A stretch of 51,133 nt of DNA from Candidatus Nitrotoga sp. BS. Its GTDB lineage: Bacteria > Pseudomonadota > Gammaproteobacteria > Burkholderiales > Gallionellaceae. This document shows positions 931-7,013 of the stretch, piece after piece; within the stretch, counting starts at the first letter, position 1; the number at the start of each line of letters is the position of its first letter. The stretch is taken from positions 1 through 51,133 of the forward strand of contig NZ_CAKMLL010000050.1 of NCBI RefSeq assembly GCF_927797785.1, written 5' to 3'. The notes beneath the pieces were generated by a model that was not told the origin of the DNA, ran no database searches, and saw only the letters and a program-made list of their open reading frames with translations. The translations under genes were made by a program, and so were the position numbers.

Positions 931-1806
931 ATGCGCACAACATTTTCATCGCAATTGCACTTCGACCAACAGTACCAGACATCTCTCAAGCATTTCAAGC
1001 TCAAAGGTTTGCAGCCCAAGACCATCGAGGCGTACTCGCGCACCCTACGCCGCATCGGCGCGCGCTTCGATCATCAAATCGACAGCCTGACCGAGGCACA
1101 ACTGAGGGAGTATTTCACCGAACTGGTGGCGTCGCACGCGTGGAGTACGGTCAAACTCGACCTGTACGGGTTAAAGTTTTACTACCCGTACGTCTTGCGC
1201 AAGCCTTGGGTCGCGCCCGGACTGATCAACCCCCCGAGGTGCCAACGCCTGCCGGATGTCGTCACGGTCGACGAGAGTCCGGTGGATATTAATCGCCACG
1301 CGCGTGGTCAGTTACCGGGTGTGCTTCTTCACGCTGTATAGCCTGCGCTGCGCCTGGGCGAAGGGCTACGGCTGCAATTGGCGGATATCGATGCGGCACG
1401 CGCTCGCGCGCATATCCGCGATACCAAGGGCAACTAGGCTCGCTTCGTTCCGCTGCCGCATGCGACGCTCCTGCTCCTGTGCCGTATTGGCAAACGCATC
1501 GCAACCCGTTGTTGCTGTTCCCCAACCACCATTCCGGCAGAAAAGTGGCCGCAACTGCCAGGACGCTGCTGGATCATGACGGTGTGCAAACCACTCTGCA
1601 CAAAGTGACCGAAGCCTGCGGCCTAAAAAAGAGCACGCCTCACAGTTTGCGCCACAGCTATGCGACCCATCTGATCGATGGCCGGGGTCGACCTGATCGA
1701 GGTGCAGAAGTTTCTCGGCCATCACTCCCTACTCACCACCGCCCGCTATACCCACCTGACCGACCAGACCAAACTTCTCGCCATAGAGCGTATCAACGGG
1801 AAGTAG
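931..1806 (+). pseudogene. Tyrosine recombinase/integrase remnant of the IS91-associated type
   Basis: The N-terminal SAM-like DNA-binding domain is readable from the ATG at 931 ('HFKLKGLQPKTIEAYSRTLR'). The catalytic domain follows in other frames. Landmarks include 'RVCFFTLYSL', the box with 'HSLRHSYATHL' (conserved His and Arg), and 'FLGHHSLLTTARYTHL' with the nucleophilic Tyr, ending at a TAG at 1804-1806. At least four lesions separate these pieces: a frame change near 1275, another near 1345, an in-frame TAG at 1435-1437, and frame changes near 1480 and 1680. Intact relatives are about 290 residues and usually sit next to an IS91-family transposase, which is absent here. The gene is therefore a dead relic of a mobile element. 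Confidence 0.8.
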
Positions 1807-1883
1807 CACTTTTGTCAGTCTAACCTCGAAAATCTGGCCAGAACTCGCAGCGAAACAACAGCGATAAGATCAGAATAAAAATG

Positions 1884-3433: not shown

Positions 3434-4038
3434 TTATACCATTGCCTGCGCGACAGGCGCACCCATCCTGTCTAAGTCAAACACTTTCAAACGAATCAGC
3501 GTCTCAATGCGCTTTAGGTTGTACGTCAAGCTCATCAAGCCCACCCCCCCTTGGCGCGCGCTGCGCCAATACTGCGCAAGAAGATGCCGCCCATGTCGTT
3601 TTCCATCGCACCAAAAACATGCTCGACCCGTGCACGAACGCGCGATTTCTCTGTGTTGCTCAGCGCTTGTGCTTCGGTCAACGGTTTGTTGCGATAGGCA
3701 CGTTCATGAATCCGGCTCTCGTGCCGACTTCCCTTGAGGCTTTGCGCCTGTTCGTCTGAACGGTAGGCGCTATCTGCCCACACTTCTTTGCCGCCTGTCG
3801 CCTCGTCGCGCAGCACCCCATCGAGCACCTGACTGTCATGGTTGCTGGCGGCGGGTCAGGCGGCGGCGGTGATGAGCTTGGTGTCCTGGTCGATGTTGAT
3901 GGGGTTCTTATAGCCATAGTGGCTTTGACCGCTTTTCTTCGCCCAGCGGGCAATGACGGCGTTGAGCCGCTCCAGCGGGTCGCCTGCTTCAGACAGGCTG
4001 GCGTAGCGGTTCTGAAGGTCAAACAGGCCGTTTTGCAT
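3434..4038 (-). pseudogene. IS5-family transposase, internally deleted and inactivated
   Basis: The reading frame starts at 4038 with 'MQNGLFDLQNRYASLSEAGD', a typical IS5-family N-terminus. It then jumps directly to 'ARWAKKSGQSHYGYKN', so the intervening segment with part of the DDE catalytic region is missing. An in-frame TGA at 3856-3858 follows 'KLITAAA', and the same frame resumes with 'HDSQVLDGVLRDEATGGK' and 'WADSAYRSDEQ'. A second lesion, in a C-run at 3541-3547, moves the C-terminal 'GLMSLTYNLKRIETL' segment to another frame, with a TAA at 3434-3436. The protein cannot be functional. Confidence 0.8.
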
Positions 4039-4301: not shown

Positions 4302-5069
4302 TCAACTCGAACCAGGCATTTTGCGGCGCTCCCACTCTTTTTCCAGCGCCTGGATATCGCGCAACCAGTCAATTTTTACTACACTCAGCACTTCGTGTTG
4401 ATGATCCTCTAACGATTCCTTCATGCCATGGATCTTGGCGAGCTTGGACAGTGTCGTGTCCCTTTGATGCAGAAGATATTCGATGATAGGAATGTACATA
4501 CCAACGAAACCGGTGAGCCACTCGGCCGACACCGAGTTTTCGCCTTCAATTTGAAAACGGAAACGTTGAATCGCCGCTAAAATAATGGAAGTATTGAGCC
4601 AGTGGCCACTAGTCACCCAATGATTTACCGTAAATAAACTTACGGGCAGACCACGACTATCCAGGCTAATAGCAAAAAGATGGGATGGGGCTGTTCGTTG
4701 CCATGGATTATTTTCTCCATTAACGTAGCGCCTATTCCCTGAAGCGGTAGCGTGATAGAAAAGATGAAGGTGGCCATGCTCGACCGTTGCATGCCGATGG
4801 GAGTGATAAAAAAACTGATAGCCATGACGACGATCCAAGACATCCGGATCGGGATAGCGCTCATCTTCGCGGACTTCCTTACCACTAATCCAGTTTTGCA
4901 GTAGCGAACCAAACTTTTGAGTGGCATCGCCCCAAGCATGCACGCTGCGCTGTGCATACTCATAAACGTGTACAAACTCTGTATCACCCATAGCACGCAA
5001 CATTGATCGGTAACTCACATTACACCCACCAAACCTGCTCCAAAGAAATCTGCTCAAAACACGGATCAT
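4302..5069 (-). CDS. His-rich conserved protein of unknown function, cotranscribed with the Cys-repeat lipoprotein
   Basis: The protein has 255 residues from the longest start. GTG at 5018 and an internal ATG at 5003 are alternative starts, and none has a strong ribosome site. No signal peptide or membrane span is evident, so it is probably cytoplasmic. The conspicuous feature is a cluster at about residues 85-105 reading 'FFYHSHRHATVEHGHLHLFYH', rich in His with one Glu, which could hold metal ions. From memory it resembles proteins labelled DUF6969, but I could not confirm this. The C-terminus is helical and charged ('KEWERRK'). It begins 44 bases after the lipoprotein gene ends, in the same direction, so the two are likely one transcription unit. 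Confidence 0.7.
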   Translation of the reverse strand: MIRVLSRFLWSRFGGCNVSYRSMLRAMGDTEFVHVYEYAQRSVHAWGDATQKFGSLLQNWISGKEVREDERYPDPDVLDRRHGYQFFYHSHRHATVEHGHLHLFYHATASGNRRYVNGENNPWQRTAPSHLFAISLDSRGLPVSLFTVNHWVTSGHWLNTSIILAAIQRFRFQIEGENSVSAEWLTGFVGMYIPIIEYLLHQRDTTLSKLAKIHGMKESLEDHQHEVLSVVKIDWLRDIQALEKEWERRKMPGSS

Positions 5070-5113
5070 TCCGAGGGGGTAGCCCCCCTTTTTTGAATAT
5101 CAGCTATTCCTTA

Positions 5114-5368
5114 TTATTTTGCTTTGCAGGTCCGATAATAATTTACGCTACTCGCGCCTGATTTAGCGCCGCATTTAGCGCCGCATTTAGCACCACATTT
5201 AGCGCCACATTTAGCGCCACATTTAGCACCGCATTTAGCTTGGCTTTTTGATGTGCCACAGCTGCGGTTGCTGTGACACGTCGTCGAGCATCCAGTAGAT
5301 GCCAATGCAGCAGTTGTAATTACAGCACCAACAATAGACCGCTTGAGAAGCTGAGACAAATTTGCCAT
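5114..5368 (-). CDS. Small lipoprotein with tandem Lys-Cys-Gly-Ala repeats
   Basis: The ATG at 5366-5368 is preceded by AGGAGA with ideal spacing, so I prefer it over an upstream in-frame start at 5437. The 84-residue product begins 'MANLSQLLKRSIVGAVITT' and has a lipobox ('ASTGC'), predicting a lipidated Cys at about residue 27. The mature part contains ten Cys: the lipid Cys, a 'TTCHSNRSCG' segment, six consecutive KCGA units followed by a degenerate KSGA, and a C-terminal 'YYRTCKAK'. Low-complexity Cys-repeat precursors are known among peptide metallophores such as HvfA. Here, however, no DUF692/DUF2063 maturation genes are nearby, and the partner is the His-rich protein. Copper, zinc or thiol stress are plausible cues, but this is inference. 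Confidence 0.75.
   Translation of the reverse strand: MANLSQLLKRSIVGAVITTAALASTGCSTTCHSNRSCGTSKSQAKCGAKCGAKCGAKCGAKCGAKCGAKSGASSVNYYRTCKAK
5161..5239. repeat. 12-bp tandem repeat encoding the Cys-repeat region
   Basis: Six complete 12-base units (atttagcgccgc and variants) are followed by seven bases of a seventh. On the coding strand each unit reads AAA-TGY-GGY-GCT (Lys-Cys-Gly-Ala). Every difference among the six units is in a third codon position and is silent. Confidence 0.85.
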
Positions 5369-6014
5369 GATAATTCTCCTATAAAGATTAAATAAATTGC
5401 TACCGTATGAATCCGCTGACAAACTTACAAACGGCACATAGCATATAGAGGCAACGATGTAATTTCGTTACATCTACGAGCATCTTACATGTATTTGGCT
5501 CACTGACCAAGACACAAGAACACGTGATTCACACACCGTTCGGACCTACTTCAGACGCCATCCTAACAAGGCAAGTGACTGGTACTGACGCAATATTTAC
5601 GCCATGAAATCGTTCAGCTGCACTATCTGATTTCCATCTCGGCGCAGATTCGCGACATGATAATATTCAGCAGTGTAAGATGTTTGATCACATGCATGGC
5701 GGGCTCTCCTTCGCAGCTTGGTTGCGATGAAAGTGACAATAAATCTGCCGTGCATGTACTTTTTTGGAGCAGATAATAAACCTTATTTTATTGAAATGTA
5801 ACGCATTTTTAGGAAAAACCTCAGGGTCTGACTTTATTTAACCTGATCTATTGGTTACCGTCGATGACAATTAATGAAAGAAGTATTGGTGTAAAATGTT
5901 AGACTTTTTCGCAAGGTGCTCTTAAATAGTGCAATCTAAAACTTCAGCATTAATCCTTAAACTGGATCATCGTTTTAGTGTCGGCAAGCCTTACGCACAT
6001 TGGACGTTGACTAA
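5369..6014. other. Intergenic region between divergent genes
   Basis: This stretch must hold the promoters of the leftward lipoprotein unit and the rightward Sel1-repeat gene. A 24-codon minus-strand frame at 5623-5697 with a good ribosome site is listed separately. I see no tRNA or strong terminator. Confidence 0.4.
5623..5697 (-). CDS. Possible 24-residue small protein
   Basis: An ATG at 5695-5697 is preceded by GGAGAG about eight bases upstream. It opens a frame reading 'MHVIKHLTLLNIIMSRICAE' plus four more residues before a TAG. The peptide would be hydrophobic and Met/Ile-rich. Length alone gives no statistical support. It lies upstream of the lipoprotein unit in the same direction and might be a leader peptide or a chance frame. 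Confidence 0.22.
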   Translation of the reverse strand: MHVIKHLTLLNIIMSRICAEMEIR

Positions 6015-6869
6015 ATGATATGCGCGCGTTGCGAAAGTTTGAACGTGCGCCGCTCTTCGTGGAAAAAAAACGAAGACCACATGAACCATATCCTTTATGC
6101 ACCGTACCGTTGCCGTGACTGCAAGCATCGTTTCTTTAAATTCAGTAAAACTTTTAAGCTTTCTCTCACAGCCATCTTGGGTTTGCTTGCCTGCGTAGGA
6201 TTTTTTGCCACGATTTATCTATTATCCAAACCTGACTCTATTATCGCCGCACCACCTATCGCCCATGAAATAAAGCCAAGCAGAACATTTGTACTCGAGA
6301 AAGCCAAACAGGGTAGGGCCGATGATCAATACGCTGCAGGACTCATGTACTTGCCAGGTGGCGACTTCACAGTAAATTACCAGGAAGCGCTAAAGTGGTT
6401 TGATTTAGCTGCCAAGCAGGGACATGCAGGGGCGGAATTCAATCTCGGCCTGCTTTATCAAAATGGACATGGCGTCTTGCAGGATTTCACCGCTGCTGCT
6501 CAATGGATTGAGAAAGCAGCTCACAAAGGTTACCCTGAAGCTCAACATCACCTTGGAAAACTTTACAAAACTGGTGAAGGAGTCCAACGTGATCTGACGC
6601 AGGCTTATGTCTGGTTTAACCTCGCGTCCGCACAAGGCTACCAACCCAGTATTTCTGGACGAAATAATGTAGCAAATCTCATGAGTGCAGCTGAAGTGCT
6701 GAAAGCACAAACCTTGTCGCGTAATTTCAAGCTAACACTACCCAATCGCGGTGAAGACAAAAAGCTTGCGGACAACGTCGAAAAGCATATCCAAAAAGAT
6801 ACACCTGAGAGAAGCGCGAAGCAACCTTCACAACTAGACAACGAATTTAACAAAAATGTCTCAAAGTAA
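6015..6869 (+). CDS. Membrane-anchored Sel1-repeat protein with N-terminal zinc ribbon
   Basis: The 284-residue protein starts with a CxxC pair ('CARC', residues 3-6) and a second pair ('CRDC', about residues 34-37), forming a probable zinc ribbon. A single hydrophobic segment ('LSLTAILGLLACVGFFATIY', about 49-69) would anchor it in the inner membrane. From about residue 95 to 205 there are three Sel1-like repeats of about 36 residues with the AxxxG/LG..Y..G.GV pattern ('NLGLLYQNGHGVLQDFTAAA', 'HLGKLYKTGEGVQRDLTQAY'). The C-terminal tail is charged and low-complexity. Sel1 repeats usually mediate protein contacts, so the partner cannot be named from sequence. It is followed by 269 bases before the convergent glmM. 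Confidence 0.75.
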   Translation: MICARCESLNVRRSSWKKNEDHMNHILYAPYRCRDCKHRFFKFSKTFKLSLTAILGLLACVGFFATIYLLSKPDSIIAAPPIAHEIKPSRTFVLEKAKQGRADDQYAAGLMYLPGGDFTVNYQEALKWFDLAAKQGHAGAEFNLGLLYQNGHGVLQDFTAAAQWIEKAAHKGYPEAQHHLGKLYKTGEGVQRDLTQAYVWFNLASAQGYQPSISGRNNVANLMSAAEVLKAQTLSRNFKLTLPNRGEDKKLADNVEKHIQKDTPERSAKQPSQLDNEFNKNVSK

Positions 6870-7013
6870 CCGCCATCGCCACTAAATTCACTTACAAAAA
6901 TTGCGCTTCAGATTTGAATCTGCCTTACTATTTAATGTGAAGACGCTACTTAAATATATTTCAATGTCTCAGGTTGTTGACAAGCTATAGCCACAATATT
7001 TACTGACTTACTG

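Follow-up and report, generated by a model that had tools for sequence, protein, structure and literature searches.

MNIO enzymes have recently opened a large field, that of exported, Cys-modified copper-binding peptides. The described systems closest to the locus considered here are those of the captophorin/HvfA type (Buf_EGKCG/oxazolin), with MNIO and DUF2063 (PME1) as partners, and that of bufferin 1 (DUF2282-like precursor, MNIO, DUF2063, DoxX). Metallothioneins and copper storage proteins are likewise small proteins with many thiols. Here, we describe a two-gene unit from a 51,133-nt stretch of Candidatus Nitrotoga sp. BS (contig NZ_CAKMLL010000050.1, positions 1 to 51,133; “the window” refers to this whole stretch). 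Like the captophorins, the unit has an exported Cys-repeat precursor with KCG units and an adjoining partner gene, with DoxX nearby in some loci. It differs in that the window has no MNIO, the neighbor is DUF6969 instead of DUF2063, and the repeats read AKCGAKCGA instead of EGKCG; in relatives, the repeats are of the NPC, KCAP, or GCCAAKK kind, or cytochrome c is fused. With bufferin 1 it shares an exported precursor, partner genes and, as we infer here, a possible role in soft-metal stress. However, bufferin 1 is present as a separate operon in the same genome (L110), with another precursor, another partner, and no gene shared at this locus. In contrast to metallothioneins and copper storage proteins, which it resembles in having many thiols in a small protein, the unit is exported, consists of tandem repeats of low complexity, and comes with a partner gene dedicated to it.

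Within the open-licence literature, we found no paper on DUF6969, PF22308, or the repeat strings. The main text of the survey of the MNIO landscape (PMC12452194) has no words that begin with NPC, KCGA, or rhodanese. In the portions of text available, the captophorin paper (PMC13097082) does not contain DUF6969, and the SoxT paper (PMC11582611) does not describe the Cys-repeat/DUF6969 pair. The features of the unit are as follows.

5376-5380, minus strand: likely ribosome-binding site (AGGAG) of the Cys-repeat gene, 7 nt upstream of the ATG (by reading)
5114-5368, minus strand: exported Cys-repeat protein of 84 aa, possible lipoprotein and candidate substrate/precursor (ORF reading; same-genus homologue in L029)
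5291-5368, minus strand: signal sequence, residues 1-26, with a lipobox-like ASTG before Cys27 (by reading)
5165-5236, minus strand: six KCGA units, residues 45-68 (sequence reading)
5073-5090, no strand assigned: G/C hairpin between the two genes (minus-strand RNA fold z -2.44), at most a stem for this unit
4302-5069, minus strand: DUF6969 protein of 255 aa, candidate metal-dependent partner enzyme (Pfam PF22308); the true start may be further in
4764-4805, minus strand: segment H89-x-H91-x5-E97-H98-G99-H100-x-H102, likely metal-site core (H98 in 82/87 sequences, the rest invariant in 87/87)
4680-4682, minus strand: codon of H130, a sixth conserved His, kept in 84/87 sequences

The original prediction, a Cys-repeat protein with six KCGA units and ten Cys followed 44 nt later, in the same direction, by a 255-residue His-rich protein, is confirmed; by reading, no signal peptide is obvious in the second protein. 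The start of the Cys-repeat gene is taken as the ATG at 5366-5368, giving 84 aa; the program-made ORF list has an earlier GTG (107 aa). The N-terminus is hydrophobic and ends ALASTGC, and the ten Cys are counted from the lipobox Cys27 onward. By our strict test (defined below), this is the sole exported Cys-repeat ORF in the whole 51-kb window. The protein contains no EGKCG and gave nothing above cut-off in Pfam or NCBIfam. The residue after Cys is mostly small in these proteins (for the KCG type, G follows 75 and A follows 66 of 186 Cys). The lipid anchor that had been proposed may apply to some members and is not general. In the window and in L029, the lipobox is A-S-T-G-C, with Ser at -3, and so is not a strict [LVI]xxC; the strict pattern was found in 7 of 61 neighboring Cys-repeat ORFs, with L037 an eighth by eye. 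Relatives L030, L033, and L034 carry an LGGC lipobox, as does L037 by eye.

An intrinsic terminator between the two genes was considered and rejected for this unit, as the T-run lies on the plus strand and would serve plus-strand transcripts only. Near the unit are fragments of a phage-type integrase (931-1823, plus strand; Pfam match 931-1341) and of a DDE transposase (3535-4038, minus strand; Pfam match 3535-3828), with the further pieces of both identified by reading, and these suggest a mobile history. An HD-domain protein (Pfam HD_5) is encoded at 1884-2891 on the minus strand; upstream of it is an ORF of 155 aa, with which its start overlaps.

The second protein is not the orphan it had been taken for. 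It matches Pfam PF22308 (DUF6969, classed as a family of unknown function) over residues 39-233 (E 9.3e-50, 169.5 bits against a cut-off of 27), and all 87 aligned relatives (87/87) match the same family; NCBIfam models matched neither it nor two relatives that were searched. Its start is uncertain: no clear ribosome-binding site was seen by reading before the ATG at 5069, and close relatives have 57 to 76 residues ahead of the conserved HYP motif. The protein bears the His cluster HSHRHATVEHGHLH, and H89, H91, E97, H100, H102, N149, R203, and D204 are invariant in 87/87 sequences. In an AlphaFold2 model built from 11 sequences (mean pLDDT 84, pTM 0.84), the core consists of strands, with helices at the flanks, and H89, H100, H102, and H130 sit on three consecutive strands. 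The His cluster, which the original prediction raised as a possible place for a metal site, forms the core of an invariant set consistent with one, and a metal site around the invariant His/Glu residues is likely. A sulphurtransferase mechanism using a DUF6969 Cys was considered and rejected: no Cys is conserved, with any alignment column holding Cys in at most 34 of 87 rows. Foldseek found no fold match for the model in the PDB (best E 0.27), and the best that profile searches of PDB sequences yielded was not below 0.13; neither result points to an enzyme class. We also considered whether the HxH-x5-E segment resembles a cupin, for which no tool gave support. A same-genus genome carries a second DUF6969 copy with three in-frame stops (L025; G345 contig C24) in addition to an intact copy on another contig (L029).

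To survey the pairing, we kept the best 80 loci from at least 564 relatives of the window's DUF6969 protein; these are the best-scoring loci and not a random sample. An exported Cys-repeat ORF was required to have a hydrophobic 11-mer near its start, at least four Cys, one Cys tripeptide occurring at least three times, and no more than 12% Arg. It should be noted that this criterion is our own, that it missed L012, L092, and L108 (where ORFs are present by eye), and that it can accept shadow frames. Such an ORF lies within 3 kb of DUF6969 in 61 of these best 80 loci; at 56 of them the distance is no more than 1 kb. Of the 61 ORFs, 58 share the strand of DUF6969, 52 are upstream of it and nine downstream, and the median gap is 65 nt. 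The density of these ORFs falls steeply with distance, from 60 in 158 kb within 1 kb (0.38 per kb) to nine in 150 kb at 1-2 kb, four in 140 kb at 2-3 kb, and two in 507 kb beyond 3 kb. Twenty arbitrary 20-kb stretches from eight DUF6969 genomes, used as a control, gave one match in 400 kb, probably a spurious shadow frame.

The pair was also found in 20 of 28 short-flank loci (own copy included; some genomes occur again in this set, e.g., L003/L076 and L005/L053). Of the five plasmid regions viewed, which were picked from 153 and 168 matching records, four have the ORF by the strict test (Sinorhizobium meliloti pSymB, S. medicae pSymA, a Burkholderia glumae plasmid, and Skermanella) and the fifth, from an Azospirillum lipoferum plasmid, has none. 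The idea that homologues of the two genes co-occur as neighbors is therefore upheld: the pairing recurs, and is specific, across alpha-, beta-, and gammaproteobacteria. The small Cys gene is missing from the (incomplete) PLSDB gene table in both Sinorhizobium records; in S. meliloti pSymB (L160), it is an exported 4-Cys ORF at 6610-6984, between the YeeE/YedE gene and DUF6969. In the B. glumae plasmid (L163, 4064-8595), the genes that come after the Cys-repeat gene and DUF6969 encode an MTA phosphorylase and two glycosyltransferases with an arsenosugar biosynthesis annotation, and clusters whose representatives match these same two families occur at 8 and 6 of the 80 loci.

No partner was detected within 3 kb at 19 of the 80 loci, some on cut contigs; L108 and L092 (at a contig end) have one by eye. 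For the other 17, a genome-wide search with an NPC profile, which KCG types would escape, found a match elsewhere in six and none in 11. Three Ferrovibrio loci and two magnetospirilla loci without an adjacent partner each form a clade.

Profiles of the repeats give a view from the other side. Among 300 genomes of the window's order, a KCG profile matched 10 at E <= 1e-3 and six at E <= 1e-5. In five of these six the match is directly beside DUF6969 (four of five once the window's genome, itself part of the profile, is set aside), and the sixth (G528) is without DUF6969. DUF6969 itself is patchy, being present in 20/300 genomes of the order and 16/100 of the window's family. Among 299 genomes of the phylum, an NPC profile matched eight of 11 with DUF6969 (in two of the eight, G016 and G081, not beside it) and 40 of 288 without, 35 of the 40 being from one family, f33. 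Coupling to DUF6969 is looser for NPC types than for KCG types. We fetched 20 NPC-protein loci, most (not all) from DUF6969-negative genomes. In five of 11 viewed f33 loci (L112, L116, L117, L118, and L122), exported NPC-repeat proteins and cytochromes of the SoxA/TsdA type occur without DUF6969 and share a gene run with an ArsM-like methyltransferase, an ArsS-type radical SAM gene, or both; in the stretch shown for the other six, neither of these two genes was seen (labels from one representative, L112, with the other loci by reading). NPC proteins thus have contexts other than DUF6969, and the f33 gene run is possibly another context of Cys-repeat maturation.

The neighboring peptides fall into two classes, KCG-like (KCGA, KCAP, GCCAAKK; the class of the window) and NPC-like. 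On a tree of 87 DUF6969 proteins with 66 typed rows (19 KCG-like and 47 NPC-like), two class changes are sufficient, against 11 to 19 (mean 16.8) in 500 shuffles, which leave genome relatedness in place. With the 31 betaproteobacterial rows only, there is one change (shuffles 5 to 14, mean 10.7). The tree is of a quick kind, with a long-branch warning for L008 and L012, and we assigned the type by hand for the window, L008, L009, L010, and L012. The window's own family holds both classes, which means that taxonomy by itself does not account for the match. Gallionella- and Sideroxydans-like genomes seem to belong to that family, given that two family peptides equal those of loci so named. As judged from these sequences, repeat type follows DUF6969 clade, and linkage together with type matching shows the two genes to be one functional unit.

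What might DUF6969 do? Our preferred reading, which we hold at slightly less than even confidence, is that it works in the cytoplasm as a metal-dependent partner of exported Cys-repeat peptides, probably as the enzyme that matures them, and that it has no need of MNIO. In this view, one gene of the unit specifies the peptide for export and the other the protein that serves it in the cytoplasm; DUF6969 would coordinate one or two metal ions with its invariant His and Glu residues and act on the repeat Cys residues ahead of Sec export of the peptide. Any such action would probably precede export, since the peptide is exported and no signal peptide is obvious in DUF6969. The invariant His and Glu, together with the match to repeat motif, favor a DUF6969 that acts on the repeats themselves, and a metal-dependent modification of Cys is the simplest form this could take. 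Such an activity would parallel that of MNIO on bufferins and captophorins, through an unrelated protein. Of the possibilities raised by the original prediction, the one with the best support is that of a modified-peptide system whose maturation protein is a different one, both modification and metal binding being predictions.

The same residues could also serve a partner that does not modify the peptide at all. DUF6969 may instead load metal, passing it from the His cluster to the Cys repeats, or hold the repeats in a reduced, export-competent state. A dense set of invariant His and Glu with no conserved Cys is what such a role might show, the clade match with repeat type suits binding as well as catalysis, and thioredoxin or DsbD neighbors (15/80 loci) suggest thiol upkeep. 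However, N149, R203, and D204 are invariant too, which we judge to be beyond the needs of simple metal binding. In addition, Sec substrates normally cross the membrane without bound metal. On balance, we consider metal loading or holding doubtful.

Genomic neighbors provide clues to physiology. They were counted over the best 80 of at least 564 loci, with flanks of up to 7 kb and clusters named from one or two representatives. The most frequent are an ECF sigma factor (25 loci), Pfam Sulf_transp (18), a pyridine-nucleotide oxidoreductase cluster (18), and a zf-HC2 cluster (17), followed by a DsbD-type membrane protein (15), thioredoxin (13), DoxX (8), and rhodanese (8). Thioredoxin, DsbD, or DoxX is nearby in 12 of 17 KCG-like loci, three of 44 NPC loci, and three loci of no typed repeat. 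Sulphur transport or rhodanese, which recall the modules of SoxT/TsuA (YeeE/YedE) import and rhodanese, is nearby in 17 of 44 NPC loci and one locus of no typed repeat, and in none of the 17 KCG-like loci, the type to which the window belongs. The nearest ORF also has CxxCH in 23 of 44 NPC loci, and a SoxA/TsdA cytochrome c match was found in three scanned DUF6969-linked proteins (L108, L047, and L096), as well as in L112, which is without DUF6969. A radical SAM gene cluster occurs at 13/80 loci (L052, 10892-11893, and 12 more), about 4 kb downstream of DUF6969 in Marinobacter and in other genera too; the best NCBIfam match of one scanned member is Rv1681-like, below its cut-off.

Under the preferred reading of DUF6969 as a maturation enzyme, the finished peptide of the KCG type, as in the window, would buffer soft metal ions outside the inner membrane. 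Periplasmic soft-metal buffering is our best guess for this type because the thiol-redox and DoxX neighbors resemble published bufferin/captophorin clusters. For the NPC type, often fused to SoxA/TsdA-type cytochrome c, sulphur handling is as likely, and the finished peptide would handle sulphane sulphur and electrons.

The sulphur genes also allow for a peptide that is an unmodified carrier of, or sink for, sulphane sulphur, with DUF6969 working on a small sulphur compound of the same pathway. Sulf_transp at 18 and rhodanese at 8 of the 80 loci, the SoxA/TsdA cytochrome domains fused to NPC repeats, and the gene order in S. meliloti and S. medicae (sulfurtransferase, YeeE/YedE, Cys ORF, DUF6969) all point this way. 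However, the confinement of sulphur neighbors to NPC loci (apart from the one locus without a type call) leaves out the KCG type of the window, and the way in which repeat motifs follow enzyme clades suggests that DUF6969 contacts the repeats directly. We regard this sulphur-carrier role as unlikely.

The MNIO question is more complicated than the original prediction, which had MNIO-type partners absent here, would imply. That statement stands for the window: it (contig C50) has no MNIO (PF05114) gene, and DUF2063 was not matched among the seven ORFs scanned around the locus, a scan that structure-only PME-type 2 proteins would escape. It does not stand for the genome, in which the only MNIO match is on contig C45, in a separate bufferin-type operon (L110; G000) comprising an exported Cys precursor of its own, MNIO, and DUF2063-like and DoxX-like genes (labels other than MNIO by reading). 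MNIO was matched in nine of 25 other DUF6969 genomes and not found in 16, some of them incomplete; among the 21 of these 25 with a completeness of 90% or more and a contamination of 5% or less, it was found in eight and not in 13. MNIO lies near DUF6969 in five of the best 80 of at least 564 loci. L033 and L050 have a bufferin-like precursor of their own ahead of MNIO. In L031, L037, and L106, no separate one was seen before MNIO among ORFs of at least 60 aa within 0.9 kb upstream, so in these few genomes it is possible that one peptide is shared by both enzymes; the order in L106 is KCAP peptide, DUF6969, MNIO, DUF2063, DoxX.

It could be argued from the single MNIO gene on C45, from the resemblance of KCG to the EGKCG motif of MNIO substrates, and from the five loci with both genes (three of them lacking a visible separate precursor) that the KCGA peptide is modified in trans by an MNIO encoded elsewhere, DUF6969 being accessory or incidental. 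We find this very unlikely, given that the MNIO operon of the window's genome has its own precursor, as do L033 and L050, and that MNIO was not found in 16 of the 25 other DUF6969 genomes. That the two genes are mere neighbors with no functional link, as the patchy distribution (16/100 family genomes) and the transposase and integrase remnants would permit through hitch-hiking, is contradicted by the recurring, specific pairing across three proteobacterial classes and can practically be dismissed.

A bolder form of the preferred maturase reading, which we put forward with a little more reserve, is that DUF6969 founds a new class of peptide maturases that depend on metal and have no relationship to MNIO. 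Such maturases would act on the Cys of tandem-repeat peptides destined for export (KCGA, KCAP, GCCAAKK, NPCAAK) and on that of cytochromes with a repeat tail, giving a new modified residue that binds soft metals or sulphane sulphur. If true, this would be a large RiPP-like class across the alpha-, beta-, and gammaproteobacteria; precursor and DUF6969 partner are genetically coupled and matched in type, as would be expected of such a class.

The findings indicate a second set of exported Cys-repeat proteins with a dedicated partner family, often in genomes where MNIO was not found, and they connect peptides of this kind with the import of sulphur and with c-type cytochromes. DUF6969 gains a testable role and named natural substrates, for which Sinorhizobium meliloti offers a laboratory model. 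The recurrence of the pair in many bacteria points to a system, not described so far, that handles metals or sulphur outside the cell membrane.
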